A DNA stretch of 64,000 nt. Source: Gautieria morchelliformis. Lineage: Eukaryota > Basidiomycota > Agaricomycetes > Gomphales > Gomphaceae. Location: NCBI GenBank assembly GCA_015179125.1, contig WHVA01000369.1, positions 1 to 64,000 of the forward strand. The letters run 5' to 3'. The notes beneath the pieces are model-generated. The model searched no databases. It was not told the DNA's origin and saw nothing but the letters and a program-made list of their open reading frames with translations. Position 1 is the first letter of the stretch, and each line of letters opens with the position of its first letter. This document shows, in pieces, positions 2,559-29,037 of the stretch. The translations under genes and the position numbers were made by a program.

Positions 2559-3666
2559 GTGGGAAGAAGAATGCGTCTTGATCCTAAACCATTCACCATG
2601 TCGTCCAATCCTGACTTCTCCAAAATGACCAGCGTGCAAATGAAACAATATTTTGCCAATATGGTCGTGCAAGAAGAACTGGCGGAAAAACGTGAGGCCG
2701 AAAAGGCTGCATGGAAGGAAAAGCAACAACTGGAGGAGGAGTGCAAGGAGAAGGAGTGTAAGGAGAAAGAATGCAAGGAGCAGGAATGGAAGGACCAGGA
2801 ACGCCGCGAGAAGGAGGAGCATCTCCGCGAGGACAAGCGGAAATGCAACGCAGCCAAGAAGGCTGCAGAGGATAAGGCCGCCGCAGAGAAGGCGGAAAGA
2901 CAACGGGTGAGTCGGAAAGTTTCTGCAGAAATTCCATGGCTGCTAACGAAATTCCATCTAGAAAACCGTTGAATATGAATCTGAGACAGACTCGGAATCT
3001 TTGGTGGAAAGTACACCAACTCCCAAGGGCAAAAGGAAAAAGAAGGCGGCCGCCTCTTCACTGAACGTTGTGGAAGGACGGAAAGGAAGGGTGGACGAGT
3101 TCCAGCAGGCGAGGGTGAACAAATTTCAGCGGATGTTGGAACTACGGGAGATAGGTCCAGAGAACCCTGCGACCAAAAAGCGCAAGATGAGGGATGATGA
3201 TGAGGAATAAAAGGCCGCATGCGACCCATGCGAAGCAAAGGGCTCGATTGCATCTGGTCAGACAATCCACAGGAAACATCCTGTGAACAATGTCGGGACA
3301 ATTCCCCCGCTCAGCCCTGTTTTCAACCTTGGCATCCCAGGCCTGCCCATTTCAACTTTCTGTCTCTTTCCACGTTCCACCCTGGCAGAACACCCATCCA
3401 TGACACAGCACCTTTTCTAGGTGACCGGAACATCAGAGGCTGTGGTGTTAAACTGCTTTACCATGGCCTTGTCGCTCCTCGACATTGCGGGATGGATGAG
3501 GACTATGAGGGACCAACAAGGTGAAATCCAGGATATTCTGGCCGAACTGATGGAGATTCAGCAACATCAAGTCCTCTCAGTGCAGAACCAAATGACTGTG
3601 GTGTCCACCATTCTGGAGCAGTTGGTGTGGGAAATGCGATGGCGGAATGACTTGGTCCGGGTGTGA
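2559..3666 (+). CDS. Antisense accessory ORF of element A: coiled-coil protein with cysteine-pair remnants
   Basis: Plus-strand coding sequence inside a minus-strand element, between the chromodomain and the 3' LTR. The first part (2559-2906) is rich in Glu, Lys and Arg with repeated KEKECKE-type heptads, predicted as a coiled coil. GTGAGT at 2907 and a CTAAC...TAG ending at 2961 look like a short spliceosomal intron. Then comes an acidic and basic stretch with KGKRKKK (3001-3210). Around 3218-3320 closely spaced Cys codons (CDPC, CIW, CEQC) resemble the Zn2Cys6 cluster of the B counterpart at 10335-11686. A last segment (3421-3666) is helical and Gln-rich (QQGEIQDILAELMEIQQHQ). Its own function is unknown; the parallel with B is the best evidence that it was a gene. 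This copy looks decayed. Confidence 0.55.
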
Positions 3667-3971
3667 ATGAACACGTGACTGTGGGAAGAAGGGGCTGGGG
3701 CGGAAGCGGGTCCAAGCGCGAGAGCAGAAAGTGTGGCGAAAGGGAGGGAAAGGGTTGAAGGGGACTTGGACAGGATCGAGCAAGAGGAGGCAGAAAAGGC
3801 ATCGGAAACGGAAAAGATGGGTGGAGAGGAGACAATGAGGGAGGATGAGGTGACTTGTAATTAATTTCTTGAAGTGTCAGAAAGTAATGTAGCGGAATAT
3901 TAATTAGATTTGAACTTGATACTCGAACAATGTAAGGGAAAGGAAGTGTCGGAACTGAGGGTTGGCAATGA
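3667..3971. other. Spacer between antisense ORF and pol of element A
   Basis: About 300 bases between the end of the plus-strand antisense ORF and the end of the minus-strand pol. It would hold the convergent 3' ends of both. It is purine-rich in its first half. I see no ORF or motif I can support. Confidence 0.5.
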
Positions 3972-6900
3972 CTAAGGCGCGGAAATAGGGCCAGGCTTGG
4001 TGGGGTATGCCTTGTGGAAATCAGAGATGAGTTCAGAGGCATGGTCAAGTTCCATGGCAGAAATCCAGGAAGTCTCCTCATCGGTGTTTTCATAGCCTGC
4101 CCACTTGACTAGGTACTGGAGTTGGCAGCGGTATCGTTTGTTGAGCTTGGAGTTGAGAATTTCCGAGATTTCATATTCCGGTTCTCCGTCGATGATCACT
4201 GGTGGAGGCGGAGGTTGTTCTCAATTCGGAATTATGTTCGGAACTGCGGGCTCGAGCATGGAGACATGGAATACCGGGTGTACTGTGCGCATATTGTCAG
4301 GAAGTCTGAGAGTGAAAGAATGACTGCCAGCCTTAGCGATGATCTCATAAGGGCCAAGGTATTTTTCAGAGAGCTTCTTCGAGGGCCAAGTGGTGTGGAA
4401 GTTTTCAGCTTTGACAAAGACTTTGTTGCCAATCTCAAATGCTGGTTGCAGAAGACGTTTCCGATCGGCAAAAGTTTGGTATCTCTTTTGGGCAGCGGAA
4501 ATGTTCTCTCGGAGGTGCTGGTGAAGGTCGTTGAGTTCCACAATGAAGTCTTGGGTTCTGGCAGAGGCGAGGTCGTGTTCGGGGTGGATGACGAGATTCA
4601 GGTGGTAGGTAGCCCTTGTTGGTGTAGAAGGGCGAAATTCCACTGGTGGCGGAAGGTGCATTGTTGTAAGCAAATTCTGTGAGCGGAAGAAGGTCGGACC
4701 AGTTGCTGTGTTGGTAGTTGCAATAGACATGGAGGTACTGCTCGAGGGTTTGATTAGTATGTTCCGTTTGGCCGTCACCTTCAGGACTGGAAGTGAAGTG
4801 GAGTTTCATGTCAAGAGCCTTGCCAAGTGTGTGGAAAAAAGAGGACACAAATTCTGATCCATGGTTGGAAGTGACATGGGAGGGGATTCTGTGCTTGGAA
4901 AAGACGTGGTGTACGAAGAGCTGTGCGAGCTGGGCGGAAGTGATGGTGTTGTAAGTCGGAGTAAAGATAGACTGCTTTGTGAGGTGGTCAACAACAACTA
5001 GAATAGTATCATAGCCAGATGACTTAGGAAGTTTCTCGATGAAGTCCATGGATATCGAATTCCAGGGCTGTTCTGGGATTGGAAGTTGCTTCAGAAGGCC
5101 GTAGGGCTTGTGACGTTGAGGCTTGGCACACATGCAAGTGGTGCATGACTTGCAGTAGTCTTGGACCATCATGTGGAGGAGTGGCCAAGTGTAGGTACAT
5201 CAGCTGATGTCGAGGGTCTTGTTTTGGCCTTGGTGTCCTGAGAGCGGATGATCGTGGCTTTGCTGGAGTACTCGAAATTGTGGATCATTGATATCCGGAA
5301 CATAGATTCAGGACTTGTAGCAGAGGAATCCATCGGAATTGAGGGACCATCCAGGACTGGTTGGGTTATCGAGGTGGGTTGTGGAGATGGGGTTGGAACG
5401 AAGTGCGGAACGGATGTCGGAATGGAGAGACTCGGTGTCCATGATGATTGAGGCGTGGAGTAGCGGAAATTGCAATGCTGTGGCATGCATGGACGATGCC
5501 AGCTGCTCAGTCGAGAATACTGGGCAGAAATTGTGTGGATTAACGCTGGCATAGTTGCTACTTCCCTCTTTTGGGTAGATGTCCCAACGTCTAGTGAGCA
5601 CGTTGGGTTTTGCTCTGAGCTTTCCGGGGTGGAAGTGGCTCACCATATTGAACTGTAAGAGATATTCAGACCAGCAGACTTGATGGCGAGTCAAAATCTT
5701 AGTAGTCTCAAAATACTCAAGGTTTTTATGATCCGTGACAATGTCGATGGGATAAGTCGGACCTTCGAGGTAGTGTTGCCAAATCTTGAAGGCTTCAAAG
5801 ATCGCGAGTAGTTCATTATCGTGGATGTTGTAGTTGAGTTCTGGGGCAGAAAAGGTGCGGGAATGAAAAGCGATCAGATGAATTTCTCCGTTGTTGGGGG
5901 AAATGATTGAAAGAATGGCGGCTAGCGCATAGTCAGAAGCGTTGGTTTCGAGCACAAGTTGGGCATCAGGAATCAAGAAACCGAGAATAGGAGCCGTAGT
6001 GAAGGCCACCTTGAGGGCTTCGAATGCTGAACAGCATTCTGGAGTGAAATTCCATGGATCACCCTTCCTGGTGAGATACGTGAGCAGAACAGTAATGTCG
6101 AAAAAGTTATAAATGAAACGTCGGTAAAAGATGGTGAAGCCAAGGAAAGACTGTACATCCTTAACCCATCGGGGTTCCGGCCATTCTTGAATTACCTTGA
6201 CTTTGTCCTCTGCCATGGTGAGACCTGTTGGAGAGAGGATATAGCCTAGGTATTCCACCGTGTTGCGATGCCGTTTGCATTTCTCTGCTTTTGCATAGAG
6301 GTGGTGTTTGCGGAGGTGGCGGAGTACTTCGCGGACATGTTCCCAATGTTCTTCCGGTGTGTCAGAATAGATGAGGATGTCGTCAATGTAGACTAGGATG
6401 CATACATCGAGGAGGTTGGAAAATACATCATTCATAAATCACTGAAAAGCAGCGGGAGCATTGGTTAGACCAAAAGGCATGACAACCCACTCAAAAGCAC
6501 TGTAGCGAGTGCGGAAGGTGGTTTTCCACTCATCACCTTCGCGGATGCGGACAAGTGATAAGTGTGCCGGAGGTCGATTTTGGTGTAGATCTTTGCGCTG
6601 GGGGGAGTGTCGAGGAGGTTGGAAATGCGCAGAAGTGGATATTTATCCTTCTTAGTGAGGGCGTTAAGTCTGTGGAAATCGACGCAGAGGCGGAGAGATC
6701 CATCCTTCTTCTTGACGAAAAGGACCGGAGCGCCGTGCGGAGACAGCAAAGGGTAGATAAATCCCATGTTGAGGTGTTCATCAATGAACTCACGGAGAGT
6801 CTGGAGTTCACTTTGCAAAAGGGAGTAGATCGGTCCAAGGGGCGGAGATTCTCCTTCTTCCAAATCTATCTTCAAATCATAAGGTTGATGTTCAGCAGGT

Positions 6901-7247
6901 TTATCGGATTTGGCCTTGTTGAACACATCCGGGAAGTCATGGTATTCTTCCAGAACTAAGCTCATATTGACCAGAGCAGAAGTCGAGGTGGAACGAGCCT
7001 TGACTGAAGCTGAATTGGAGAGGTGAAGCTGAAAGACAGTCAAATCTTGTTGCCGTTGCAATATGCAGAAAGCGGTGGTGGAAACGAGAGCAATTCGAGG
7101 AGCTTCAAGGGACGGAGTTGCTAACGGGGGACCAGAGTGCAGAACTGAATCTACAAGCGGAATTGCAGAAGAGGCTTGAGCCATCTTTGCGGATGACATC
7201 TGAATAGACAGAAGTTGACCCGGGGTACCGAACTGTATCTGACCCAA
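3972..7247 (-). pseudogene. Element A pol fossil: RT, RNase H, integrase, chromodomain
   Basis: Broken pol of a Ty3/gypsy chromovirus. Reverse transcriptase: PVLFVKKKDGSLRLCVDF near the N-terminus and the active-site core YIDDILIYS (about 6360-6390). RNase H: TNASDYA and DHKNLEYF. Integrase: DFIEKLPKSSGYDTILVVVD with the later HTSSPEGDGQTEHTNQ region. The post-integrase segment has HPVFHVSMLEPA, followed by a chromodomain with EYEISEIL and YLVKWAGYENTDEETSW. The enzymes would copy element RNA and insert the cDNA, with the chromodomain targeting chromatin. This copy is broken and treated as a fossil. Confidence 0.9.
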
Positions 7248-7271
7248 TGCCCAGTTAATCGACGGATTATA

Positions 7272-8866
7272 TCAGGTGAGCCAATTGTGTCCTAGTCCAA
7301 CGGAACAGCTAGCATCTAGCGGAGTAACATAAAATGTAACTTCATGGTTGTCCCCAATAGCAAAATGGATGGATAGGTCCACGACTTGTGAGATTGCCGT
7401 GTTGGATGACCCATCAAAAAGGCGGAGCAGAATTGTCGGAATGTTGTCGGTTGGAAGCTTATGCTTCAAAACAAAGTCGGAATTGAGGAAACAGTGAGTC
7501 AAACCAGAGTCGATCAATGCAGTAAACGGAGGTGTGGAAATGGTGTCAGAGGTGAGCGGAATCAAGAGGGAGTCGGAGGACGAAAGAGTGGATGTGTTGA
7601 GTTTAACCTCTTTAGTCACACGAATGGGGTCAACACAGCCCTCAGCTTGTGCAGAGGCCGGAGGACTGCTGACTATTTTTTTGCATCCATAGTGGGAGTT
7701 GCTTCGGATTTCTTTTCCGTCTTCGCTACGCGGCCCTTGGCCTTTGCAGCGGAAGCGGTAGCTCGGGTGCATTCTGACCTTCTTTGCCGCAGAAGCAGAA
7801 GAGGCAAAGGTTGTTGTCCCTGCGACACTGGTGTTCTGCAGGGATTAGCTTTCCATCCTTCCCAAGTTTGTCGGAAAGGTCGGGAGTGCTTTTCTGGGCG
7901 TTGGTGTTGGAACCAGAGGCCTGGTTGTTGTGAGGTGTGGGAGTGGTGTTCTGGTTGCCGGAGTTGGAGCCGGAACTGTTGTTGTTGTTTCCGGTGTTGT
8001 TATTTCCGGAATTGGTCTTCTTCTTGTCTTTATCAGACTTCTTGTTGGAAGACTTGTCGTGCTTGCTCTGAGCGGAAGTTTCACGAGTGATTTCAGAATG
8101 TCTATCCCAGTAGCGTGCATCGATAGATTGGGCTAGGTTGCGGAGGTCGGTTAGGGTGGCGGGTTTTCTGATGCGGGTGATTTCATCCTTGATCTGGGAT
8201 GGCAGGCCCATGTAGAACTGTTAGTGGAGTGCGGTTCTCCCCATTGGACTCAAGGAGTGAGCTGCTGGAAAGTGACGATGTATTTAACTATCTTATGAAT
8301 GTCTTTCATATGAAGCTTATTGAGTTCATTTTCTTCCATAACCGAATGGTCCGAAGTTGTTGCGGAGTTCAGAAACGATGTTTTGGTAATCTCCGGCCCA
8401 GTCGACAACAGCGTAGGGGTCCATGAGGGTGGGTTCGAAGTAGTCAAGAGCCATGCCCCTAAGGTACGAAAGGGCGTAGTTGACCTTTTGCTCATCATCA
8501 GGAAAGGCGTCGGGACGATCGTGGAAGTTGAGCTGAAGCTGAACTGAAAAAGGCTGAAGCTTCTTAGGGTCAGAACCATTGAACTGATCTGGTTCATGAA
8601 ATTTTGTCTTGGGGTGTGGAGCTTGGGCCGGACGCTGGAGTTGGCTGGCCAGCATGGCAATAGCCTGTGCAAGATCCGGGGCTAGAGTGGGCGGAACTGG
8701 GTTGGCGGGATTTGGAGGTGAAGGCCTGCCGGGGGGAGGTCCTGGTGGTGGTGGTGGTGGAGGTGGGCATTGGAATGATGCTGCTGTCTGTTCGCCGCTG
8801 CTGCTCAATGAGTTTCTGTCGTAGTCAGTATTGTCGTCTGGATTCACGTCGGGAACTTTCCATTTA
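7272..8866 (-). pseudogene. Element A gag and protease fossil
   Basis: Minus-strand gag followed by protease. Gag begins in a Pro-rich segment (about 8750-8800), continues through the PDQFNGSDPKKLQPF motif typical of this chromovirus gag and an Asn/Ser-rich linker, and ends in NNLCLFCFCGKEG in place of a clear CCHC knuckle. The protease has ALIDSGLTHCFLNSDF and LGHNWLT. Upstream it abuts the integrase end of element E1, so the original start is gone. Broken. Confidence 0.85.
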
Positions 8867-9280
8867 TTATCGATCTTGGAGTCAAGGATTTCCGAGACTT
8901 CGAACTCGGGCTCGCCGTCGATGACAACTAGAGGCGGAGGAGGCTGAACTCGGTTTGGGATGGTGTTGGGCGAGGCTGGTTCGAGCATGGATATGTGGAA
9001 TACTGGATGGACTGAATGCATGTGTTCTGGAAGTTGAAAGGTGAAGGAGTGAGTACCCACTCGGGAAATGATCTCGAAAGGACCCAAAAACTTCTCGGCG
9101 AGTTTCTTAGTGGGCCAAGTGGTTCTGAAGTACTGTGCTTTTACAAAGGCGAGGGATCCTACTTGGAAATCAGGGCGGGTTTGCGACGAACATCGGCCGA
9201 GGCTTGGTAGGTCTTTTGAGCCTCGAGGATGGCGTGGCGAAGTTCTTGGTGAAGCTCGTCCAGGTCAACCACGAAGTCTC

Positions 9281-9699
9281 TGTTATTGATATATGAGAAG
9301 GGTTGGCGTCGCTGTGGCGAACGAAGCCGGAATAAGAGAACGCAAACTAATGCAAACACGAGTAAGGGAAGGATAGCCGATCTCACGGCACAGGACAACG
9401 AGAACAAACTGAAACACAAGCAATGAGGACACTGTTAACTCAGAGCTCAACAACCGGACTCCTCATGGGAGCGATGGGCTAAAAACCATTAGATTGTTTG
9501 TAACTAATGATCTACTACTTGTATATGACGGACATAGGGGTGGAAACCAGTAGAACATCATGGAACACCGGAATGGCAATCACCGGTGTTAGCAATGGTG
9601 ACAGGTGACGCAAGTGTAACAAGAAGAATACTACCTACAAGGCTAGGAAAAATAGTAGAAATAGCGGGAAAAATGCCGGACGATCCTCACTTCATAACA
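9281..9699. repeat. Solo LTR, TSD GTCTC
   Basis: A 419-bp segment from TGTTATTGAT to TTCATAACA, flanked by GTCTC (9276-9280 and 9700-9704), inside the E1 integrase sequence. It shares short blocks with the LTRs at 31969 and 42387 (GAGGACACTGTTAACTCA, TGGGCTAAAA, GGAACAT), so it is a diverged relative of that copia-type family. Confidence 0.85.
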
Positions 9700-9734
9700 G
9701 TCTCGAGCTCGTGCTGAGGCGAGGTCGCGCTCAG

Positions 9735-10207
9735 TGTTAAGAATGTAAGTCATACTTAAGATTCAACCTGAGGGCCGAGCTGAGGATAACCGAGGTTCGG
9801 AACAGAGGGCTTGGCTTCAACTTCGTAGGTTGTGCCCACTACAGTGTTCTGCCCTAATTTTGGAAACGGAATTGGAGACGGGTTCGGCTGGAAGCCAAGG
9901 TTTGGAAATGAGGATCAGACAGAGGAGTGGAAGATACAAGGAATCTAAGTTGATATCAGAACTGAGGGATTAGTGTACATGACGGGGGTTTATATACTAA
10001 TTTGCAAGGAACGGAAAGAGGGCATCAATGCCCGTATCGAGCAGGAAGCAGGGTTGACGGACGATCCTCAGAAATGGAACAGGACTATCTAGGAATGGGG
10101 ATCAGGGTGAATGATGAACCGATAGGGAACCCGAGTTAAGCCCGAAGGTTCCCGAGCAAGAACCGAGGCCGAGGCCTCAGGTCCAGACTCGGGAACGGGT
10201 CTTAACA
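9735..10207 (-). repeat. 3' LTR of element B with polypurine tract
   Basis: A 473-bp LTR, TGTTAAGAATG to GGGTCTTAACA. Next to it, 10208-10220 reads GTACCTCCCCTTT, a polypurine tract on the minus strand. The partner LTR is 29038-29502. A TATATA-like box (TTTATATACTAA) lies in the middle of the LTR. Confidence 0.92.
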
Positions 10208-10334
10208 GTACCTCCCCTTTATGGCCGAACCCATGAGGCCATAAGTGAGATTACAGAGATTGCCGGAATGGGGGTATTATGTAAACTTTGTTTCGCGTAT
10301 CTTTTTCTGCTTCTTCCCATCATTTTAAATTCCC

Positions 10335-11686
10335 ATGTCAGACATCCAAGACACCCAAGAGCCTACAATCGAGGAACTCGACGCAGAGCTCGAGCGCGAG
10401 GAACTTGAGGCAGAGAGGAAGAGGGAGGAACTGAAGGAGAAGTGTCACCTCGCCCAGGAGCGCAAGGACACGGCGGAAAAAAAGAGGAGGGCGGATGATG
10501 CCCAGAAAGTGAAAGAAGCCGAGGAGGAAAGGGAGTGGCTATGCAAGGCGAAAGCCGAGGAGGAGGAGTGTGAGAGGCGAGAAGCTGAGGAAGAAGCAAG
10601 GAGGACCCGGGAAGCCGAAGAAGAGGCTCGGGAGGCCAAGAAGAAGGCCCAAGAGGAAGAGGCCAAGAAAGCTGAGGTAGCTACCCGTGCTCGTCTAAGA
10701 CAACGTCTTGACGATATGATTAAGGAGTTTCAGGAGCGACAAGCCTCGGTCAGCCAAGAGATTCGGATACCATCGCCCGAGTTAGTGGTGGTGGATTGGG
10801 CTGCCGCGAAGGCACGCATCTTGATGTCAATGCAAGCTCGGGAGCGGAATCAAGCGAAGGCGAAGCCCAAGGCAACGGAGGCAAAGAAACAGAAGGTGGC
10901 GGAGGAGGAGTCGGAAGAGGAAGAAGTGAGTTTTCCGTTATGGTTCAGTTCGGCTACTGACTTGTGATTTAGGAATTCCCTTGTGACAACTGCTATCGGC
11001 GGAAAGTCTCCTGCATATGGGGGACTAATATGGCATGCCGAGACTGTAATGCCCGCAAGGTTCATTGCAGTTTTACTGAGGGAAAGCGGAAGCGCAGGGT
11101 CGGGGCCGAGGTACCGGCGGCAAAGACGCCAAGGTCAACGCCAATGAAGCCGACGGGTGCCAAACCGTCGGTTGAAATAAAAACGGGTCCTTCAGGGTCG
11201 GGATCCGGAAATGGATCTGGGTTGCCCACCGAGGCCGGGTGGCCTAAGTTGACGGGCCTTTCCAGGGATCAGGCCTCGGCGGCCATTCGGGAGCTTCTGG
11301 CTCAACAAAACGCTCTTTTCGAGCGAATGCACGATACACTCCAGGGAATACTGGAGTTTGCCGAGAGAACACATCGGCAAAACACTCGCCTTAGCAAGTG
11401 GGTTCAATGGTGGACGGGTGTGGCTGAAGAAGCTGGAGTTTGGGGTTCGGGTTCGGGTGCGGATTGGGAGGGGTTCGGGTTCGTGGGGGGATCGGGTTTG
11501 GGAAGTGGAGACAAGGGAAAGGAGAAGGAAGATCAGGGAGAGGAAAGAGCGGGGACCGATACGGGATCGGGATCGGGACATGGGGACGAGGATGTGGATA
11601 ATGCGAGGGAAGGGGGTTCGGATGCGGAGTCGGGAAATGAAGATGGGATGGATGCGGACGGGGATGCAACTATGAAAGAGGATTAG
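10335..11686 (+). CDS. Antisense accessory ORF of element B: coiled coil plus Zn2Cys6-type cysteine cluster
   Basis: Plus-strand gene on the antisense strand of element B, between its chromodomain and 3' LTR. The first part (10335-10926) begins MSDIQDTQEPTIEELDAELE and is a long Glu/Lys/Arg/Ala coiled coil of about 170 residues. GTGAGT at 10927 and TTTAG ending at 10973, with CTGAC between, define a candidate 47-bp intron that keeps the frame. The second part opens with CDNCYRRKVSC and CRDCNARKVHC, giving C-X2-C-X6-C-X7-C-X2-C-X6-C, the spacing of Gal4-type zinc clusters, with the usual basic RRK and ARK. Next come KRKRR, a helical segment (DQASAAIRELLAQQNALFER) and a Gly/Ser/Asp-rich tail. 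No stop interrupts it. A nuclear DNA-binding role is inferred from the motif. A diverged relative lies at 2559-3666 in element A. Confidence 0.75.
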
Positions 11687-11927
11687 AATAATAATGTTTG
11701 TTTTGGAAATTGTGAATCTTTTTTCTTGGTGTTTTTTTGGCTGGGGTTTGGAATCGGAAACGGGAGTGATAGATGAACAGGGAATGAGCGGACGGATGTG
11801 GGGCCGATAACTACAAGCGTAAATATTTGGCAAGGCGGCCGAGATAGGACATAGCAAAAGAGTGTTTGTCTAACTAAGAAAGTGACCATATAATGAGTGA
11901 AATGGAATGGGGAGCCGAAGCTCGGGT

Positions 11928-14685
11928 TCAAGGAACCCATGGTCCAGGCTTGGCAGGGTAGGCCGAGTGGAAGTCAGTCACGATCTCGGATGCATGGCCG
12001 AGTTCGGTCGCAAGGACCCATGACATCTCCTCATCGGTTCCTTCGTAACCAGCCCAACGGACAAGGTACAGGAGGTTACAAGGTCTATGGCGTCGGTCGA
12101 TCTTGGAATCAAGGATCTCGGAAATCTCGTACTCGGTCTCGCCGTCGATCTCGACTGGGGGCGGCGGAGACTGAACCTGGTTCGGAATGACATTCGGGGT
12201 TGCGGGTTCGAGCATTGAGACATGGAAGACTGGGTGGACTGCCCGAAGGCTGTCCGGAAGCCGCAATATGTAAGCTTGGGATCCGGCCTGGCCAATGATC
12301 TCGAAGGGGCCAAGGTACTTTTCAGCCAACTTTTTCGAGGGCCGGGTTGTCCGGAAGAACTGCGCTTTTACAAACGCTAAGGACCCAATTGCGAACTTGG
12401 GGGCGGGCGCACGACGCACGTCAGCTGAGACCTGGTACCGAGATTGAGCAGATTTGATTTGCTCTTTCAAGGCAGCGTGAAGCTGGTCAAGGTCGACTGC
12501 AAATTCTCGGGCCCGAGAGGAAGCGAGGTCCCATTCAGGGTGAACTGTCAAGTTCGGGTTGTAGCCTTTGTTGGCAAAGAACGGTGAAATGCCGGTGGTG
12601 GCACTGGGAGCATTATTGTACGCAAACTTGGCAAGCGGGAGCAACTCGGACCAATTGTCTTGTTGGTAGTTGCAATATACCCGGAGATATTGTTCGAGAG
12701 TTTAGTTTACACGTTCAGTTTGACCATCGCCTTCGGGGTGATAACCGGAGGTAAAATGTAAGTTCATGTCGAGAGCTTTGCCGAGGGAACGGAAAAAGTG
12801 GGATACGAATTCCAAACCTCGGTCCGATGTCACATGGCTTGGGACATCGTGCTTCGAGAACACATGCAAGACAAACAGGCGGGCTAGGTTGGCAGAAGTG
12901 ATCGTGTCGTACGTCGGAATGAAGATGCTCTGCTTGGTTAAGCGGCAGACTACCACGAGGATCGCAGTGAATCCCGAGGATGCCGGCAACTGCTTGATGA
13001 AATCCATGGAGATGGAATTCCAAGGTTGCTCGGGTATCGGGAGCTGCTTGAGAGTGCCATAGGGACAGTGACGCTGTGACTTCGAACGGGAGCAAGTGGT
13101 ACAAGACTTGCAGAAGTCAATGACGAAAGACCGAATTGCAGGCCAGGTGTATTCCCAGCGGATTAGAGCAAGGGTCTTGTTTTGGCCGAAATGTCCCGAG
13201 AGTACGTGATCGTGTTTGTACTGGAGTACTCGGAGCTGGAGATTGTCGGCATTGGGAACGTATATGCGGCCATCGTGGCGTAGGAAGCCGTTGTCGGTTT
13301 GCATCCATCTCGGGTCAGAACTATCACCAAGATGCCGGCAGGCAACAGGGTCAGATGTCAGGTTGGCTAAGATGTCGGCATGAAGCTTCTCGGAGTCCAT
13401 CATAGTGCTCGCTTGGAGGATGGGTGCAAGCAGGTAAGTTGCCCGGAGTGATTCCGATAATTGTTGGTTTGGGAAAATTGGTCGGAAGTTTTGCAGATTG
13501 ACTGAGCCATAGTCATTTCCTCCCTCTTTAAGGTAGATGTCCCATCATCTAGTTAAAGCGTCGGGTTTTGTACCAAGCTTTCCGGGACGGAACCGAATAA
13601 TGAGGTTAAATTGTGAGAGGAATTCAGACCAGCGGGCTTGTCGTCGGGTTAGCAATTTAGTGGTGGAAAATACTCCAAGTTTTTGTGATCTGTGACAACG
13701 TCAATAGGGGAGCCGGAGCCCTCCAAGTAATGTCTCCAACGTTGAAATGCTTCAAAGATTGCCAGTAGCTCTTTATCGTGGACATCGTAATTTAGTTCGG
13801 CACCAGAAAACGTTTGAGAGTGGAAGGTGACAGGATGAAGTTCGCCTGTGTCATCGAACAGGGACAGGATCACGCCGAGGGCATAATCCAAGGCGTCGGT
13901 TTCCACGACCATAGGTCGGTCGGGAACCCAGTGTGACAGGATTGGAGCCGAAGTGAAAGCCTCCTTGAGGTAATTGAAGGACTTTCGGCACTCTTCGGTA
14001 AATGCCCATGGGGTGCCTTTATGGGTAAGCCGGGTGAGGGGAACAGTGATGTTGGAATAATTGAAAATAAAGCGGGGGTAAAAATTGGCAAAGCCGAGGA
14101 AGGACTGTATGTCATTGACCTTCCGAGGTTCGGGCCAATTGCAGATTGTTTGGACTTTGTCTTCGGACATGGTAAATCCATCGGTAGAGAGCATATACCC
14201 GAGGAATTCCACAGAGTCACGGTGCCATTCGCATTTATCGGGTTTGGCGTAGAGGCTGTGTTTCCGAAGACGCCGCAATACTTCATGGACGTGTTCCCTA
14301 TTTTTGACCGGGTCGTCGGAGTAGATGAGTATGTCGTCAAGGTACACAACGACGCATACATCAAGCATATCTCCGAAGACGTCATTCATGAAACGTTGAA
14401 AGACCACAGGACCATTGGCAAGGCCGAACGGCATGACCAGCCATTCGAAAGAGCCGTAATGGGTCCGGAAAGCTGTTTTCCACTCATCGCCTTCGGCGAC
14501 TTGGACTAGATGGAATGCGTGCCGAAGGTCGATTTTTGTATAGATCCAAGCCTTTCGGGACGCATCCAATAAGTTGGTAATCAATGGAAGTGGATAGCGA
14601 TCTTTCTTTGTAATCTTGTTGAGTGCTCGGAAATCGACGCAAAGCTGAAGTTCACCGCTCTTCTTCTTGACGAAGAGGATGGGGG
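11928..14685 (-). pseudogene. Element B pol fossil, 3' part: RT, RNase H, integrase, chromodomain
   Basis: Minus-strand pol. RT with VVYLDDILIYS (about 14318-14350). RNase H with ETDALDYALG and DHKNLEYF. The integrase zinc-binding region has FCKSCTTCSRSK and the core has SDRGLEFVSHFFRSLGKALD and HPEGDGQTERVN. Post-integrase HPVFHVSMLEPA. Chromodomain with EYEISEILDSKID and YLVRWAGYEGTDEEMSW. It is split from the N-terminal part of RT by a solo LTR at 14686-15225 and is broken in a few other places. Confidence 0.9.
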
Positions 14686-15225
14686 TGTTGGGTGCATTTA
14701 TGCTCCTGCACCAAAATCAAGCCAAATAGATTCCACCATTTGTATTTCTTTTGATTTTGACTTGAAACCATGCTGACATTCATTCTATGATTTGTCAAAT
14801 TTTTCTTTGATTTTTTGAAGCTGTATTTCTACTTCTTTTCATGTTCTGTCCAACCGACCCTTTGTGGGTGGTTGTGGACAAGTTTCCTTTTTGAGCTGTG
14901 GCTGTTCACTACCGTGCTACGTTCTATGGGCGCTTAGCATGGCACACCGTGGCCTCACGGGCGCTAAAGCACCGGCTAGTAGTACATGTGCATGAGACAC
15001 ATTTCCCCCCTCTCTCAGTGACAACTAAATTCACTGAGAGAGGCAAGTAAATTAGTCTTGTTTCTTTTCGATTTGCTGACCTAGACATCCTGTAGTGAAT
15101 TAATTTATAGGTAGTGTATAATATATTTATAGTGACAACTAAATTCACTGAGAGAGTGAATTAATTTCTAGTCTTCTTTTGATCACCAAGTCCGAACCTA
15201 CTGCCTATAATTCCTGTCCTCTACA
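14686..15225. repeat. Solo LTR, TSD GGGGG
   Basis: A 540-bp AT-rich insertion in element B's RT, TGTTGGGTGC to GTCCTCTACA, flanked by GGGGG (14681-14685 and 15226-15230). It contains a perfect 11-bp inverted repeat, CTCTCTCAGTG (15010-15020) and CACTGAGAGAG (15032-15042). The block AGTGACAACTAAATTCACTG recurs near 15131. GGTGC...GCACC pairing occurs near the left end. No coding sequence was seen. Confidence 0.8.
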
Positions 15226-16073
15226 GGGGGCTCCGTGCGAAGACTGAGTGGGCCAAATGTAACCCATATTCAGATGCTCATCTATGAACGCTCAGAGCGT
15301 AGCAAGCTCCAAGGTAGAGAGTGAATATAACGGAGGCTGAGGGGGAGTAGCGCCATCCTCCAGAGCGATCTTGAGATCGTAGGGTTGGTGTGGAGCCAAG
15401 GTATCAGCTTTGGACTTGCTGAACACATCCGCGAAGTCGTGATACTCCGGAGGGACGTCCTTGAGGTCCACAGGTTGGGATTTTGCGCAAGCTGGGTGGG
15501 CCGAAGCCTCAGTCTCGGGCGTCGCCAGATTTAGCTGGAAGCACTGGGAACCCTCTAACTTCCAGGCATGGTAAAATGCCGCAGCATTAAGGAGAGCTAC
15601 CCGAGGGGCCTCCAGACTCGGGGGTGGCTCGGCCATTGCGGTGTGAGCCGAAGCTGGCGGGGGGTCCACAGGACTGTCCGGAAGGGAAGTTCGGAAAGTA
15701 ATACTGCCCAATACCCAGTCAATCAACGGATTGTAGCGGGTGAGCCAGTTGTGTCCGAGAACTACCGAAACAGACGAATCAAGGGGGTTGACATAAAAGT
15801 CTACGGAATGGGTGTGACCATTGGGGAAATGGGTAGGTAGCTCTACAGCTTCAGTAATTACCAATTTTGTACTACCATCGAATAAACAGAGTGGGATCGG
15901 GTCTATGGAACGGGTTTGGAGACTGTATTTACGGACAAAGACGGATTCTATGAAACAATAGGTAGAGCCGGAATCTACTAGTGCTTTAAAATTTTCGTTC
16001 TGGACAAGAGATGAGGACAAACTACTTACAAGAGATTTCGGAGAAAAGAGAGCAGAAGCATTGATTCTTACCT
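15226..16073 (-). pseudogene. Element B pol fossil, N-terminal part: protease and start of RT
   Basis: Minus-strand open segment with retropepsin motifs ALVDSGSTYCFIESVFV and VVLGHNWLT. A linker follows with the DLKDVPPEYHDFADVFSKSKAD region and the PYDLKIALEDGATPP sequence that precedes RT in these elements. It is cut on the right by element D (TACCT duplication) and on the left by the solo LTR at 14686-15225. Fossil. Confidence 0.88.
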
Positions 16074-16545
16074 TGTCAGGGGACACCCTGTTTTCCATTT
16101 CCAGTTCCGACACCACACCCAGTTCCAACTCCATTTCCGACTCCGCCTCCACCTCCACTTTCGGAAATGATTCCGCTTCTGGGAGAACTTCCACCAGTTC
16201 TGTTCGCCTTGCCAGTTCCACTCCAATTTCCGACTTCCACTCTCGGAACAGCGTCGGAAATCAAGCGACTCGCGTAATAGGTGGCATCAAGGGTCGATCA
16301 AGGGTCAGGGAGGTCAGGAGGATACAGGGTTGATGGCGGGTGCCAAGTGTTGTCCCTGGCTGCGCAGCGTAGTATAATATGGGCTCGCTGACATTGGGGG
16401 CCCTTAGACTTTTCTCTTTGGATTTCCCCTTGTCAGGTGAGAATCCCCTCTCTTGTATACTCTGTTCATTTATACATACTTTGGATTTCCCCTTGTCATT
16501 TGTGTGGTAGTGTGATCTCCACAACCAGCCAGGGTTGCCCTTACA
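16074..16545 (+). repeat. 5' LTR of element D
   Basis: A 472-bp LTR, TGTCAGGGGACACC to GGTTGCCCTTACA. A TATA-like AGTATAATATGG lies near 16371. The 20-mer CTTTGGATTTCCCCTTGTCA occurs twice near its 3' end (about 16426 and 16481). The bases after 16545 (GCAGAAAAGTCTCTCCCC) would be the primer-binding region; I cannot assign the tRNA. Confidence 0.9.
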
Positions 16546-16732
16546 GCAGAAAAGTCTCTCCCCTAGAGGACCGGCGGTCGTACTGCACGTTGCATTCGCC
16601 ATAGGTGCGTTCGGAATCGGAGACAGCGACTCAGAGATCGCAACCTCTTCCGCGCACACGGTATACGACAGCCCCTCTTCTTACATCGAGCTCCCAACCC
16701 CGGAAATCCCGTCCCATATTTCCCCTTCTGAC

Positions 16733-17908
16733 ATGGATCCGGATGATCGTCTTCAGAATGTGGAGGAGGAATTGACGCGGAACCAGATGAAGACCGACGC
16801 GATTGAAACAGCCTTACAAACGATTTTGGCTAAGTTAGATATTCCACAAGGTGTTGGAAATGCAATGCTGGATGAGCTGGATTTCGGAAAAGCGGAACTG
16901 GCGGAAGAGAGGATGTCCGCGAAGTTGGCAAAGGTCAAACCCGCAACTCTGGCGGACTTTGACGGAGATCGGGAGAAGGGATGTGCATTCTTCAACACAT
17001 GCAGCATCTACTTCGCAATTGTCGGAGACCTCTTTCCGAACGACCAGGCTCAGATTCACTGGGCATTGTCCTTTTTCAAGTCCGATCGCGCAGCCCGTTT
17101 TGCAAACAACGTGGTCCGACATGAAGCAAAGGGCAAGGGGAACTACTTCCAGGACTGGGACACCTTCGAGAAAACATTTTCCGACCAGTTCTGCCCGAAA
17201 AATGAGCAGCTCACAGCCCTTACGAATCTCGAGGGGACCAGCTGGTACCAGGCCAAGGATCCGGTCGATGACTACATTGACTGCTTCCAGGAGCTCATCG
17301 ACCTTGCGGAGTATGACGACAACAAGACGATCATCATCAAATTCCAACGAGGGCTTGATCCGACACTCCAGAACCAAGTGGCGCTGCTTGGGGATGGAGC
17401 TCTGGATTTCGATGACCCGGAAGGGTGGTACCAAGCTGCGTGGAGGGTGTCCCGAAACAGGGAAGCAAACGAGGCCTTTGTGGAGACAAACCGGAACATG
17501 ACATGCAGTTCTGTTCGTCCTACTCCACCTGTGCCAAAACCCAGAAGTGCATTCGTTCCCACATGGAAAATATTTCTGATGGTTGTTCCGCCTGCTCCTA
17601 TTAGGAACCCTAGCCCCCCTCCCTCGAAGAGTGGCCCTGCCCCAATGGACGTTGACCGCATGCGTGGAAAAGGCCACAGAACCATCACCTGCTTCCGATG
17701 TCGACAACCAGGCCACTATGCCCGCGAGTGCCCCCAAGCCTTTGACATCCAGCTTATGACCACAGAGGAGAAGCTTGAGCTCCTTCCAGAGTTCCTCGCA
17801 CTCGCAGACATAAGTGGAGTGCCCACTGCGGAAGGAATTTCCGAAAATGCGGAACATGGTGCATCGGAAATGGAAGATGCGTCGGATTTTGTGACGTGCA
17901 GCGGGTGA
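16733..17908 (+). CDS. Gag of element D
   Basis: Open gag of about 391 residues. It starts at the methionine of MDPDDRLQNVEEELTRNQMK, because upstream in-frame methionines lie in or beside the LTR. The N-terminal part is a short coiled coil. The middle has the retrotransposon gag fold (KGNYFQDWDTFEKTFSDQF, DDYIDCFQELIDLAEYD). The C-terminal part has PMDVDRMRGKG and a CCHC zinc knuckle, CFRCRQPGHYAREC. It would package element RNA in a cytoplasmic particle. This reading frame looks whole although the element as a whole is broken. Confidence 0.88.
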   Translation: MDPDDRLQNVEEELTRNQMKTDAIETALQTILAKLDIPQGVGNAMLDELDFGKAELAEERMSAKLAKVKPATLADFDGDREKGCAFFNTCSIYFAIVGDLFPNDQAQIHWALSFFKSDRAARFANNVVRHEAKGKGNYFQDWDTFEKTFSDQFCPKNEQLTALTNLEGTSWYQAKDPVDDYIDCFQELIDLAEYDDNKTIIIKFQRGLDPTLQNQVALLGDGALDFDDPEGWYQAAWRVSRNREANEAFVETNRNMTCSSVRPTPPVPKPRSAFVPTWKIFLMVVPPAPIRNPSPPPSKSGPAPMDVDRMRGKGHRTITCFRCRQPGHYARECPQAFDIQLMTTEEKLELLPEFLALADISGVPTAEGISENAEHGASEMEDASDFVTCSG

Positions 17909-18249
17909 GATGTGTGGCCCTGCTGCCTGTACATAACCGGTTTTCCTGTCTTGAAGTAGAGAATGAAAAGCCCCCACACCCCTCACTTCGTACAGACCCG
18001 CCGGATAAAGTCACACAAAAACCAAATCCGACACCCCATCCATCCCGCATCCGCCCTTGGGAGAGACGCCTCCCGAAGCGCTATGTTGTTGCTGCCACCC
18101 CTGGCCCCAAGTCACTAGTCATTAAGGTGGAGATCCAGATGACATATACGGCGGAAGTCAAATCCGGACCCGCCCTTGTCGATTGGAGGGCACCCCAGCC
18201 ACAGGGAGCCATCGTCCATGGACACGTCACTGACGCGTCCATGGACACT

Positions 18250-19540
18250 TAACCCTAAGAGACCATAAGGGTCCATAGGAGCCATTTCCAACCACCATGT
18301 CTTCCACGCCGCAGAAACTGCTCCAGACTCCATCTGTCGCCCTCACTGTTCAAGGAGGTGACCAACATGCCCTGCCTACATCCACACTCGATGCAAAACG
18401 CCATATCAAAGCTAATGTAAGTGCCTTAGGTGCTCCACACCGCCGCCTTCGCTGAACACTCGCGCCTCCCCCTTTTCCGCTCGTGATATACCCTCCTCCT
18501 TCTTGGATCTCACTCGCACATTTTGATGTGTTCTTCTGGCTGCTCGCATCACAGCTAAGGTGAGTGCCTCGTTGCTCCACAACGCTGAACACTCGCGTCT
18601 CCCCCTTTGCCATTCGTGGACATGTGCAGCTACGTCAGCGGCAATAAACACCGCCCACCTACAGTCATAGCTTCTTCCACAATCTGTTTGTACGACTCGC
18701 ACCAGCTGATCAATCACTCCGAGTCATCCTTGCCCCAATGAGCCTCGAGTAGCCTAACCATACCCCCGGTGACTTCGCTGCGAAGCTGCCACGTCGTCTT
18801 CTTGGTGCCGCTCCCTTCTCCAGCACAACCCGAACAACCCCATCACCGTTCGAATCACCATGCGCCATGCGCCATGCGACCGCTGCTGCCCAAGGGTGCT
18901 CCTTTTTTGCCCGGGTGGCTTCGGCGCCTCTCAGGCTTTTTTTCCTGGTGACATCTGCTCGACTTTCCGAACGTGACTATTCCGAAGACACGATACGTAT
19001 GCTGTTCCCATGCCAAGTCTCGTCCCGTCCGCCCCGCCTTTACACCGGGCTACGCAATGCTGTCCGTCCTCTTCGTCATGTCCTATGGCTTGCATGTCCG
19101 CTCCTGGCCAGACGCAGCTTCCGCCCTCCACCACGCTGTTGCGCCGTCCCCTCACCATGCTCGTCATCGCGCACACGCTGTATACACTCCACCTCCTACT
19201 CCATTCCTACAACTTTTGCGTAACGTACAGCCCGTGCCCGCCCGCACACTGGGCGCCGTGCGTGCACGTCTCGGACTTTGCCCTGTTCGTGCTCGCATCG
19301 ACTGTCCTGCCGTACCTCCGCGCTCTCGTCCTCACCTCGCTCCTCACCGCCCACTCGGCGTGCTTGCCGCTGCATTCTTCGCCGAGGTGTGGTGGGTCGA
19401 TGGTGAGATCGCGTTCCGTCTTTCACTGGGTTTTGGTGAATCAGCGTGCGGGACCGTATTAGGATGGAGGGGTGTGGCCTGGCCTGGTCTGCGGTGGGAA
19501 GGCAGCGGCGAGGAGGGTCATCCGTATTTCGCAATGGATC
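18250..19540. other. Left half of the KDZ element: no clear gene
   Basis: GC-rich internal sequence. An ATG at 18298 opens a short plus-strand frame ending at a GTAAGT (18418), which could be a first exon. A similar block follows around 18560 (GTGAGTGCC, then CGCTGAACACTCGCG in both). Several overlapping frames at 18970-19560 are Pro/Ser/Leu-rich with no recognisable motif. It may be captured sequence or filler replacing the transposase catalytic part. Confidence 0.35.
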
Positions 19541-20947
19541 CTATATTCCACTGTACATAACCGGCTCAAAACTAACAATTTTGATAAATACGTGCGGCAT
19601 TAGCACATTGCGATACCTCAATCTATGACGATCACCTGCTTCACAATAGGTTGAGCGACCGTTAGGTAGTGGGTTTTTGCATTCAATATCACCGGCACAG
19701 CAGGGATGTCCGAGAGTGACACCATCAGTGACCACCGATCGTATCCCATCTACGATGACAATTTAACAGGCGTTGAGAATAGAAAAGCACAGCTCACAGC
19801 TGATCCCATTGGCATCTTTAGAGACATGTGTGCACTTCTCACATGCATGATTCCAATGCTCCTGCCCAACTCCCATCATACAATCATTGCGTGCTTCAAG
19901 AGCGGGACGAAGGCGATCTGCTTGACTTGAGCACTGGTGAGGGATTTGTAATACATCCGAGCACACAGTAAGGTCAAGGAGGAGCGAATGGATATAAAAT
20001 GTGTTCCAGACATCTTCAGAGTAGCATGTTAGCTTGACCTTCCAATCTCGTGGCAAGATATTCTTGATGGTTGGAGACAGAAACACTTGATTAAATATTA
20101 TGTCACAATTCGTAGCTGAAGTCCTAAACGGAAGTTGATGATTATTGAGCATTCACATTACCTTAGGACTTACCAAGCTGAATTCATCATGGTAGCAAAG
20201 ATTTCACAAGCAGAAGATTGAAAGAAGAATTTTTGAGACACCTGGATAACATCAGGGACACCTGAGTAGTAAGTGCGTAATGATGCTTGTGCATGAACAC
20301 GGTAGTTGTGGTGATATCTTGTATGACAATCTCACAATAACCTTCAGTATTATTGTATACTAAAAATGTGTAACTCACTTCGGCAGTAGAATGAAGTTGT
20401 ATAGCATGGCATCAGTCCATAGTCTTTTGTCAGTAACGTTGCGGCATATGTACTGGGTTCTGTAAACGAGGACGAGCCCACTGGGGTGTACTTCCATAAT
20501 GCTGACATTCTGGATCAATGCAGACACGATGAGGTAGAAAGAATTCATAATAGGCTGCAAGTGATATGTTAAATACAGGCAGCGAACCACTCGGTCAGAT
20601 TTACCTATGCTATGAGCCGGACCATGCTTCAGAAATAAAGGTAGAAGTGAATTTGATCGTTGGAATTGAGGCTCTCTAGAATCGGTGGCCTTGGTCCAAG
20701 CCATATGCTTCCAAGTAAGCCAGATATATTTTACCATTTCGGTGTCCAGCCCCAGCACATCACATATAAAATTGTGCACAGAAATTGGCAGTGCATCTGG
20801 GGGACCAATGTAATCGTAAGGCTGGTTCCATTTTATTCGCTCGCAAAGGTGTTGGATAAGGTTGACAAATGTGATAAGCTGTTCAAAGCTGACAGCTTGA
20901 AGGAGACTGAGGTTGACACTAAGCAGTGAAAAAAGTGTCGACATATC
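19541..20947 (-). pseudogene. CxC5/CxC6 N-terminal part of a KDZ transposase, truncated
   Basis: Spliced minus-strand gene; the start is placed at MSTLFSLLSVNLSLLQ (20947). Exon 1 has the CxC5 N-terminal helical region (LITFVNLIQHL, LPISVHNFICDVLGLD, YIWLTWKHMAW). After short introns come FFLPHRVCIDPEC and SFYCRSE, then RYHHNYRVHAQASLRTYYSG, VPDVIQVSQKFFFQSSACEI and TSATNCDIIFNQ. The CxC6 part reads ALEARNDCMMGVGQEHWNHA with C-X2-C pairs, then VVTDGVTLGHPCCAG. These match the order known for cysteine-cluster regions fused to KDZ transposases in Agaricomycetes. The gene stops near 19620, before the catalytic KDZ domain, so it cannot make a full transposase. Introns are about 50-60 bp with GT-AG ends. 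The family assignment is from memory of these motifs. Confidence 0.8.
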
Positions 20948-21152
20948 GCTAGAGTAGATATATACAAACAGCGGAGCGATTCGTGCCACGGTAAGCTTAG
21001 GAGTGTGCTCATTGTGGCCGGCAATGAGTCCGTATGTAACGTTGTGGGCCTTAGGCCCACAGTCAACTATATTACCTAACACATTCTAGGGTTTGTCCAT
21101 GGACACGTCCGCGGACCGGCGCTCCCCATGGCTGGGGCGTTCTGGTCGATTG

Positions 21153-24100: not shown

Positions 24101-25486
24101 AATTGGGAACAATGGGACCACAAGGGGGGTTCAGGGTAAGGTAGAACAATGGCAAAGAACAAGGGGTCGGGAAAACATATCTGACAACGAACTACAAGGG
24201 TGACCGGATATATGGTTTTGATGGATGGCGAGGTGGGTCCGGTGGGTCCGGGTAATAGAGTCGAAAGAACAAGGGAAATGTACAAGGGGCGGAATGTCGG
24301 AAATGTCGGAGGGGCGGAACGTTGTGCGGAACTATTGGAGGGGCGGAAGGAGTGGCGGAACTGAGGGTCGGAAGTCGGAAATGAACGGTCGTAACAGGCT
24401 ACGACGCGATCATGAACATCGTGGATTCGGTAAGCAAGGTGTCCCACTTCATTCCAACACACATGATGATCACAGCCCTCGGAGCGGCCCGCCTGTTCCT
24501 TGCACATGTCTGGAAGTTGCATGGGCTCCCGAAGCAAGTTGTTTCCGACCGAGGTCCGCAGTTTGTCGTGGAACTGACTCGGGAGCTCTACCGCCTGCTC
24601 GGCATAAAGCTGGCTACCACCACAGCGTACCATCCGCAGGGTGACGGACAGACGGAACGGGTCAATCAGGAGTTGGAGCAATATCTCCGCCTCTTTGTCA
24701 ATGAGAGGCAGGATGACTGGGATGAGTTACTTCCACTGGCGGAATTCCAATACAACAACCATGTACATTCCGCCACACAACAGACTCCCTTCATGCTTGA
24801 CTCCGGAAGACACCCGCGGATGGGCTTCGAACCACGCCAGGCTGACTCCTGACTCGAGACGGTCAATGAGTTCCGAGACCACATGGACTCCACCCTTTCG
24901 GAAGCCAAGTCGGCCCTTGCGAAGGCCAAGGATGACATGGCAAGGTACTACAACCAACGCCGGGTTCCTGCCCCGGAGTACCAAGTTGGAGACAAGGTGT
25001 ATCTAGATGCAAGTGACATCCACACCACACGCCCTTCGCAGAAGCTTGCCCACCGCTATCTTGGGCCATTCACAGTGATGCGGAGGGTTGGACGGAATGC
25101 ATACCGCCTCCGACTTCCGATGTCCATGTCCCGCCTCCACCCCGTCTTCAACGTGGTGAAGTTACTCCCTATGCCTGAGGACCCAATTCCAGGTCGGAAG
25201 GCTCGTCCGCCACCTCCACCAGAAATTGTAGATGGGGAAGAGCACTATGTGGTGGAACGGATCCTGGACAGCCGGTTTGTGTGAGGACGACTCCAATTCC
25301 TCGTGAAATGGGAAGGGTATGGGTATGAGGAGAATTCGTGGGTCCCAGAGCAAGATGTTTCCGCTCCAGAAAAACTCCATGAGTTCTATAGGACACACCC
25401 CGGTGCCCCTCACCGAATCCGCTCGCTGGCATTTCAATCCCTTGTGTCCCGTGCTTCGAGGACGCAGCATGCTAGAGGGGGGGTGA
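21153..25486 (+). pseudogene. Element D pol fossil: protease, RT, RNase H, integrase, chromodomain
   Basis: Plus-strand pol. Protease remainder with GQFIDRDYVEWNRL and DIILGFTWLQEHNPEINW. An acidic linker follows with an SDSDSDSD run. RT has PVFFIKKKDGLLRLVQDYR and the active-site VCVYLDDILIFTKT (about 22347-22380). RNase H has IAFFSKSLSPVERNYEIHDK and DHKNLEYF. The integrase zinc-binding region lies near 23560-23600. The integrase core downstream of the solo LTR has VSDRGPQFV and YHPQGDGQTERVNQ. Chromodomain near 25240-25400 (VERILDSR, KWEGYGYEENSWVPE). A polypurine tract, GAGGGGGGGTGA (25475-25486), precedes the 3' LTR. Broken in about four places. Confidence 0.9.
23715..24396 (+). repeat. 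Solo LTR of the A family inside integrase of D, TSD GGCTA
   Basis: A 682-bp LTR, TGTTACGTATCGAG to ACGGTCGTAACA, flanked by GGCTA (23710-23714 and 24397-24401). It matches the LTR of element A at 1873-2473 along its length. No internal element sequence remains, so it is a solo LTR left by LTR-LTR recombination. It is younger than element D. Confidence 0.93.
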
Positions 25487-25976: not shown

Positions 25977-25981
25977 TACCT

Positions 25982-28900: not shown

Positions 28901-29037
28901 GGGGTTTTCGGGGTGGTGTGAAGTACTTCGTGCGTGGCGGGCCTCTATGGTCGGGGTGACGCGGCTACCGCGGGCACTAGGTGTAAGATCTAGTGATAGG
29001 CATATTGAACAACTGCCTGTGGAGAGTTCTGATATAC

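Follow-up and report, generated by a model that had tools for sequence, protein, structure and literature searches.

An antisense gene for a zinc-cluster-like protein in Ty3/gypsy chromoviruses of Gautieria morchelliformis, a candidate regulator of its own family

Two long terminal repeat (LTR) retrotransposons, here called elements A and B, lie in a stretch of 64 000 nucleotides from the basidiomycete Gautieria morchelliformis (GenBank assembly GCA_015179125.1, contig WHVA01000369.1, positions 1 to 64 000; hereafter the window), and both carry an additional gene antisense to pol. The gene is real and under selection at the protein level. It belongs to a fungal Ty3/gypsy chromovirus lineage as an accessory gene, is spliced once and is read toward pol, and judged by its sequence and by a structural model its product looks like a Gal4-type zinc-cluster protein. 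The role that we favour, with a probability of roughly 0.55, is that of a DNA-binding regulator of the gene's own element family that promotes expression of that family.

The antisense gene of elements B and A

A plus-strand gene had been proposed, in an earlier note made from the letters of the window alone, at a like place in both elements, antisense between the chromodomain and the 3′ LTR, and this placement was confirmed. In element B the gene begins 127 bases inward from the 3′ LTR and ends 241 bases from the pol stop, so that the two form a convergent gene pair. It consists of exon 1 (10335–10925, plus strand), which encodes 197 aa that are highly charged and helix-like, a short intron (10926–10972) with the signals GTGAGT, CTGAC and TTTAG, and exon 2 (10973–11686); the spliced product is 434 aa long. 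The frame is open and contains the pattern C-X2-C-X6-C-X7-C-X2-C-X6-C, as the note had stated. Its single short intron was borne out as well, with limits one base off the 10927–10973 first given.

The gene of element A, which had been thought to start at 2559, starts at the ATG at 2598. Exon 1 (2598–2906, plus strand) is open and is followed by an intron (2907–2961, GTGAGT to CTAG) and by an exon 2 (2962–3666) that is broken by stops and a frame change: the window copy has an in-frame stop right before the zinc cluster, the frame change within it and a further stop after it. In sister copies of A all six cysteines are in frame, and one of these copies (L052) is open through to its stop.

Protein-level selection and conserved splicing

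Copies were searched for in the genome (122 Mb, 1113 contigs) and fall into four families, namely B (30 loci), A (18), T2 (10) and D (one locus fetched). For B, the ratio of nonsynonymous to synonymous substitution rates (dN/dS, NG86) in the gene frame was 0.27 over the 27 of 30 loci in which 90 % or more of the frame is present, with 0.33 in exon 1 and 0.23 in exon 2; the other forward frames gave 0.94 and 1.18. On the reverse strand two frames gave 1.05 and 1.18, and the one whose third positions coincide with those of the gene gave 0.39. The same pattern was seen in A, with ratios of 0.23 in exon 2 (17 copies; L054 was left out since it covers the pol side only) and 0.16 in exon 1 (151 scored pairs), compared with 0.98–1.20 in other frames and 0.41 in the frame sharing third positions, and in exon 2 of T2 (0.20, 10 copies; other frames 1.00–1.34; third-position-sharing frame 0.32). 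Purifying selection on the gene was thereby detected in B, A and T2. A chance open reading frame (ORF), or mere overlap with a sense-strand gene, was rejected as a source of this signal, the reverse frames having dN/dS near 1 except for the one that shares third positions.

The GY codon model yielded an omega of 0.49 in B and 0.30 in A, and fixing omega at 1, with the same tree and the best of seven kappa values, cost 130 and 244 log-likelihood units, respectively; for B the best kappa was the highest on the grid (5.0), and free estimation gave 5.5. That omega for B exceeds the pairwise ratio is probably due to the inclusion of the terminal branches of dead copies. The dN/dS of B pol in the same alignment (0.67 as ratio of means, 0.48 as median) was not used as a yardstick because it seems too high for the protein identity of 85–93 % seen in most loci, an excess that we attribute to misalignment at insertions and deletions.

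The splicing signals are conserved. The aligned B loci have the donor GTRAGT and the acceptor AG in 30/30 cases and CTGAC in 29/30, and the A sister copies have the donor GTGAGT in 18/18 and the acceptor AG in 17/18.

A separate observation concerns the decay of B copies, in several of which stop codons recur at codons 24, 106, 207 and 220, as if from shared descent or from repeated C-to-T change at CpG.

Copies, families and position

Searching with the DNA of the B gene returned at least 45 genome matches (the best 40 of 109 candidates were scored), and searching with the protein of its exon 2 returned at least 150 (150 of 457 candidates scored) in two main tiers, one at about 80–94 % identity and one at about 40 %, the second of which is family T2. 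Relatives of element A form the third family. The fourth, D, was found beside pol relatives that are 71–74 % identical to B pol over the region searched, with open frames as long as 1249 aa; at the one locus fetched its 3′ end has a two-exon antisense gene in the same place. Exon 2 of D had 138 matches, some of them split, and 96/127 of those of at least 700 bases were stop-free, as were 44/72 of the matches below 90 % identity. More than half of the D-like pol ends (58/99) lay within 1.5 kb of a match to D exon 2, at a distance of 117–324 bases, and in all 58 pairs the two were on opposite strands.

Homologues at the same antisense position are therefore present in other elements. Of 47 loci with a recognised zinc motif (the duplicates L001–L008 being omitted), 40 included a match to pol within the flanking sequence fetched, and in 39 of these pol was antisense to the gene; L024 was not on the opposite strand, and the pol match of L045 was on the far side. 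The view that the gene is a retained accessory gene rather than a product of chance, put forward in the note, was upheld by the dN/dS ratios, the gain in the codon model, the splice sites and the predominance of stop-free frames among the long D matches.

Families B and T2 differ unevenly along their length. T2 pol is 82–87 % identical to B pol in 7/10 loci (the other three, short or broken, 66–90 %), a level of identity similar to that between many B copies, and in a pol tree of 41 loci, which contains one long A branch, T2 falls within or beside B (weak support of 83/77, the bootstrap not having settled). The antisense proteins of T2 and B, in contrast, are 34–46 % identical (pieces of at least 90 residues), and their LTRs align in part only. 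Antisense gene and LTR thus diverge together while pol stays alike, either because they change rapidly or because the 3′ part has been exchanged. By eye, the D antisense protein has little beyond the cysteines in common with the others. In viral contigs of IMG/VR three pattern matches were found, none of which was confirmed as a relative.

Zinc cluster and predicted protein

The cluster of the B gene lies at 10982–11068 on the plus strand, and its six cysteines are found in all four families, as CX2CX6CX7CX2CX6C in B and T2 and with a middle loop of X10 in A and X15 in D. One of the comparisons behind these spacings used 15 rows that had been selected for a motif match; in copies that were not selected for the motif the cysteines were kept in 157/162 cells in B (27 copies) and 102/104 in A, and the codons of kept cysteines switched silently between TGC and TGT. 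The classical zinc-cluster spacing is CX2CX6CX5-12CX2CX6-8C, a range into which the X7 and X10 loops fit.

A check against the Pfam zinc-cluster profile, which the earlier note had called for, gave a divided answer. The window copy of B scored 18.5 bits, and 16.6 on exon 2, against Zn_clus (PF00172; cut-off 21), whereas 13 sister places were above the cut-off, among them C324 with 22.2 bits and one that passed only with its frame neighbours. An A stretch of L040 (17.6 bits) and a T2 stretch of L067 (10.1 bits) were below it. A profile compared with the PDB had seven matches, all of them zinc-cluster proteins, the best with an E value of 0.0048 and the others with 0.1 or worse.

AlphaFold2, applied to B exon 2 alone as a single sequence with neither alignment nor templates, gave a model with a mean predicted local distance difference test score (pLDDT) of 65, in which the cluster forms two short helices (pLDDT 75–84 in residues 1–30), followed by a linker of low confidence and by a long helix, H98–146 (pLDDT 73–92 in blocks 101–140). 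When the model was searched with Foldseek, 24 of the 27 matches were zinc clusters (Leu3, Pho7, Put3, Gal4, Ppr1, Lac9, Hap1, AlcR and CBF3B), with probabilities of up to 0.87 and no E value below 0.4. Gal4-type factors have the order zinc cluster, basic stretch, linker and helix, and the modelled helix (11264–11410, plus strand) is a candidate dimerisation coiled coil.

The long coiled coil predicted in the note needs correction. The N-terminal stretch of the protein is better described as highly charged and resembling a single helix: in B it spans 10392–10679 (plus strand, limits set by eye) with at most 77 % charged residues per 30-residue window, and the best such windows of B and A have 77–83 %. 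The best heptad patterns come after the zinc cluster, where the scores compared with the 95 % level of shuffled sequences were 0.72/0.70 in A, 0.95/0.65 in D and 0.65/0.70 in B; A and D are thus above the shuffles and B is not. An N-terminal coiled coil as the main dimerisation part was accordingly downgraded.

CpG-containing words in the element families

Each family is enriched in short words containing CpG, counted on both strands against a uniform expectation. In A the leading word is CGGAA (4.1-fold; 10.8-fold in the LTR of the window copy), in B it is CCGAG (3.3-fold; 7.9-fold in the LTRs) with TTCGG at 2.5-fold, in D CGAGG (5.9-fold; 7.1-fold in the LTR, one locus), and in T2 TTCGG (2.1-fold) with CCGAG at 1.9-fold. 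The same words reached 0.7–1.3-fold in host zinc-factor loci and 0.6–0.9-fold in the window from 32 to 64 kb. In the window copy of A, CGGAA stands in one orientation 46 times and in the other 12 times. After synonymous-codon shuffling the excess of the family word stayed, in at least one orientation, in 3/4 A and 4/5 B blocks, the criterion being fewer than 50 of 1000 shuffles. Own words were also kept better between copies than other CpGs, in 17/18 copies for CGGAA in A, 26/30 for CCGAG and 28/30 for TTCGG in B, and 9/10 for TTCGG in T2.

The half-sites to which zinc-cluster proteins bind are usually CGG triplets. Such a triplet is contained in CGGAA and CCGAG and absent from GCGAGG. The enrichment of a CpG-containing word in a family suggests that the protein binds its own element. 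A single genome-wide bias in CpG context is disfavoured as the source of the words, the leading words differing between families. A strict one-to-one link between word and gene was not upheld, as a gypsy element that is nested in B and has no such gene is enriched as well.

In three loci of family A the zinc loop differs from the common one (L046, L053 and L057, grouped by zinc sequence only). They have less CGGAA than most A loci and offer a possible test case for joint change of word and protein. L040 is low in CGGAA too, yet has the common A zinc loop.

Proposed role and alternatives

In the role that we favour, transcription of the antisense gene would start in the 3′ LTR or in the 127-base leader, and a single splice would yield a Zn2Cys6-type protein that is expected to be nuclear and would probably dimerise through the helix after the zinc cluster. 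The most likely targets of the protein would be the CpG-containing words in its own family's LTRs, and perhaps in the element body, and the protein could raise expression of the element either by activation in the manner of a transcription factor or by protection from CpG silencing. As a tentative extension, to which we give distinctly less credence, the genes may form a fast-diversifying family of antisense Zn2Cys6 proteins, each of which reads its own CpG-containing word, accumulated over LTRs and body, and so shields CpGs or drives the LTR. ORF and LTR would diverge or be exchanged as a matched unit while pol is unchanged, and one gypsy family without the gene would live on the word of A.

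Several observations weigh against a regulator of this kind. Most copies like those of the window contain stops, and only 4/27 B copies are stop-free. The X15 loop of D is outside the classical spacing range, and D exon 2 had no Pfam match. The words are not exclusive, B having also CGGAA (2.2-fold) and CGAGG (2.1-fold) and D having CCGAG (3.7-fold), and the strongest CGGAA excess, 6.9-fold in its copies, is that of the nested gypsy without the gene. Foreign words are likewise kept better than other CpGs, in A CCGAG in 14/18 and CGAGG in 12/18 copies and in B CGGAA and CGAGG in 20/30 each, and in T2 CCGAG is better kept in 5/10 copies only; the differences in retention are small (e.g. 0.43 versus 0.35), and copies within a family are related, so that there are few independent observations. 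Two of the four A blocks used for shuffling overlap, in different frames.

Since the nested gypsy has its 6.9-fold excess in the absence of the gene, the word is not strictly tied to gene carriage, which leaves two possibilities, that this element relies on the family A factor or that the words arise otherwise. The second alternative, in which the words are unrelated to the antisense protein and stem from a host factor or a mutation bias while the gene acts in some other way, has a substantial chance of being right, although we put it below even, and it is compatible with the further explanations below. The overlap of words between families fits it too. A genome-wide bias would not, however, be expected to give a different leading word to each family within one genome; the excess of the words extends to the LTRs, which are untranslated, and persists after codon shuffling in most of the pol blocks tested, and a factor shared from family A could serve the nested element.

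A regulator of the opposite sign is unlikely in our judgement. The protein would then bind its own element as a self-limiting repressor that shuts the LTR as copies accumulate, a form of copy-number control with which the anatomy and the words are equally compatible, and retroelements restricted by a product of their own are known from other systems. A strict repressor would be easily lost, yet the gene has been kept in several families; beyond this the present data do not separate activation from repression.

We think it rather improbable that the protein acts chiefly in nuclear import of the integration complex or in chromatin-based choice of integration sites, with DNA binding secondary. 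The available part of PMC7264820 discusses nuclear import and accessory roles for the proteins of plant antisense ORFs, and the element's chromodomain is itself a pointer to chromatin targeting, but neither the family-specific words of the LTRs nor the difference in ORF and LTR between B and T2, whose pol is alike, would be explained. It is very improbable that only an antisense RNA matters, through double-stranded RNA and silencing, with the frame incidental. Convergent genes would indeed yield overlapping transcripts, and antisense RNA is listed as a possible role in the part of PMC7264820 at hand; against this stand the protein-level selection, the conservation of the cysteines and the 96/127 long D matches that are stop-free. 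An open frame that arose by chance, or a host gene captured once as a passenger, deserves next to no credence. The mostly decayed state of copies in the window's B family would suit this reading; against it, the gene sits at one place and in one orientation in four families, with a protein identity of about 40 % between B and T2 and, by eye, little beyond the cysteines shared by D.

Anatomy of the elements in the window

Element B is on the minus strand at 9735–29502, with another gypsy nested within it. Its 3′ LTR (9735–10207; termini TGTTAAGA...TCTTAACA) and 5′ LTR (29038–29502) are 93.7 % identical by blastn, are accompanied by a tract resembling a polypurine tract and are flanked by CTCAG and CTCGG. 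Upstream of the pol stop at 11928, and convergent with the antisense gene, lie the C-terminus of the integrase and the chromodomain (11928–12644; Pfam SH3_Tf2-1 and Chromo, PF00385, the latter with 26.6 bits at a cut-off of 25.1), the integrase (12702–13403; Integrase_H2C2 with 64.9 bits, and rve with 30.6, slightly under its cut-off of 32.6) and the reverse transcriptase with RNase H (13649–14584; RVT_1 and RT_RNaseH_2), all on the minus strand. A gag-like ORF (26045–26860, minus strand) gave no match in Pfam and contains the spacing CX2CX4HX4C, which we take to be that of a zinc knuckle. With reverse transcriptase, Integrase_H2C2 and Chromo above their cut-offs, together with the LTR pair, element B is a Ty3/gypsy chromovirus.

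The gypsy nested in B (16074–25976, plus strand) has an LTR pair that is 90 % identical and flanks of TACCT, and the interval from its chromodomain end to its 3′ LTR leaves no room for an antisense gene. It is very abundant: the best 40 of 1707 candidates, which were those scored, are 95–96 % identical besides the window copy. Inside its integrase, at 23715–24396, lies an A-type solo LTR with a 5-base duplication, GGCTA.

Element A is also on the minus strand, with its 3′ LTR at 1873–2473 (11 CGGAA/TTCCG words counted in 1871–2475) and pol at 3990–7247 (RVT_1 and RT_RNaseH on 5311–6435), convergent with the antisense gene. The short interval 9280–9735, between the gag side of A and the 3′ LTR of B, resembles another insertion.

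Relation to known systems and significance

The earlier note had named no described element with such a part, which holds for the zinc cluster within the literature covered and is too broad for the gene as such. The plant elements Retand, Grande and RIRE2 have been described as carrying an additional antisense gene that lies between pol and their 3′ LTR; the class is called aORF-3R and includes TRP28 of Retand and gene23 of Grande, and the product of Retand, for which a DNA-binding role has been proposed, has been likened to retrovirus genes, according to the accessible portions of the sources (PMC7264820 and PMC11963269; for the Retand product, PMC11963269). A fungal case is the antisense extra gene brtn of Boty/BcGypsy1 in Botrytis (PMC7264820, PMC8365987, PMC4227169; likewise consulted in part). 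Within the portions covered, none of these genes is described with a zinc cluster. No zinc-cluster gene on a retrotransposon was found among the search results listed, as titles and the beginnings of abstracts, from the open-access literature, outside which most subscription journals lie, and a term search of the main text of 'LTR Retrotransposons in Fungi' (PMC3248453), as available, returned neither 'antisense' nor 'zinc'. Within the literature covered, what is new is therefore a zinc-cluster domain in a known class of antisense genes of LTR retrotransposons.

The fungal gene shares with the plant aORF-3R genes, as far as the sources at hand describe them, the antisense orientation, the site between pol and the 3′ LTR, the retention in most copies and a suspected nuclear or DNA-binding role; position, orientation and selection were all found here, and presence in most copies rests on D, with its 58/99 pol ends. 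The plant genes differ in their domain, which is TRP28, SMC or none recognised, and Retand is a non-chromovirus, whereas the fungal gene has a zinc cluster and is spliced. Boty, which could be compared by description only, resembles the elements studied here in being a chromodomain-bearing gypsy of a fungus that has an additional antisense gene, and the citing literature, in the parts covered, reports no domain or motif for brtn.

With the Gal4-type factors Leu3, Put3, Gal4, Hap1 and Ppr1 the predicted protein, as modelled, shares a six-cysteine cluster with two short helices, a basic stretch, a linker and a helix; it differs from them in being borne antisense on a retrotransposon, in the charged N-terminal helix (A and B), in the longer loops of A and D and in the window copy's score under the Pfam cut-off. 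HBZ of human T-cell leukaemia virus type 1 (HTLV-1) is a basic leucine zipper protein of an animal retrovirus. Its likeness to the fungal gene is one of layout only, an antisense gene by the 3′ LTR that gives rise to a nuclear regulator (PMC11963269 and PMC7264820, in part). For the antisense extra genes of LTR retrotransposons catalogued in the accessible parts of the same two papers, no function is settled.

A parallel to the proposed role is offered by the anti-silencing proteins VANC of the Arabidopsis VANDAL elements, which are likewise encoded by a transposon whose family carries a dense motif of its own, largely in one orientation (PMC5735166, in the part available). The VANC motifs belong to a DNA transposon and sit for the most part in its noncoding tandem repeats (same source), whereas the fungal words are spread also through the coding parts of a retrotransposon, and Pfam returned no VANC match for the six proteins submitted. 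With a recognisable DNA-binding domain, protein-level selection, many stop-free copies and candidate words, the function of an antisense gene of this class becomes directly testable. If the words are the targets of the protein, the fungal families would represent a second transposon-encoded system like that of VANC, from a different kingdom and a different class of element.

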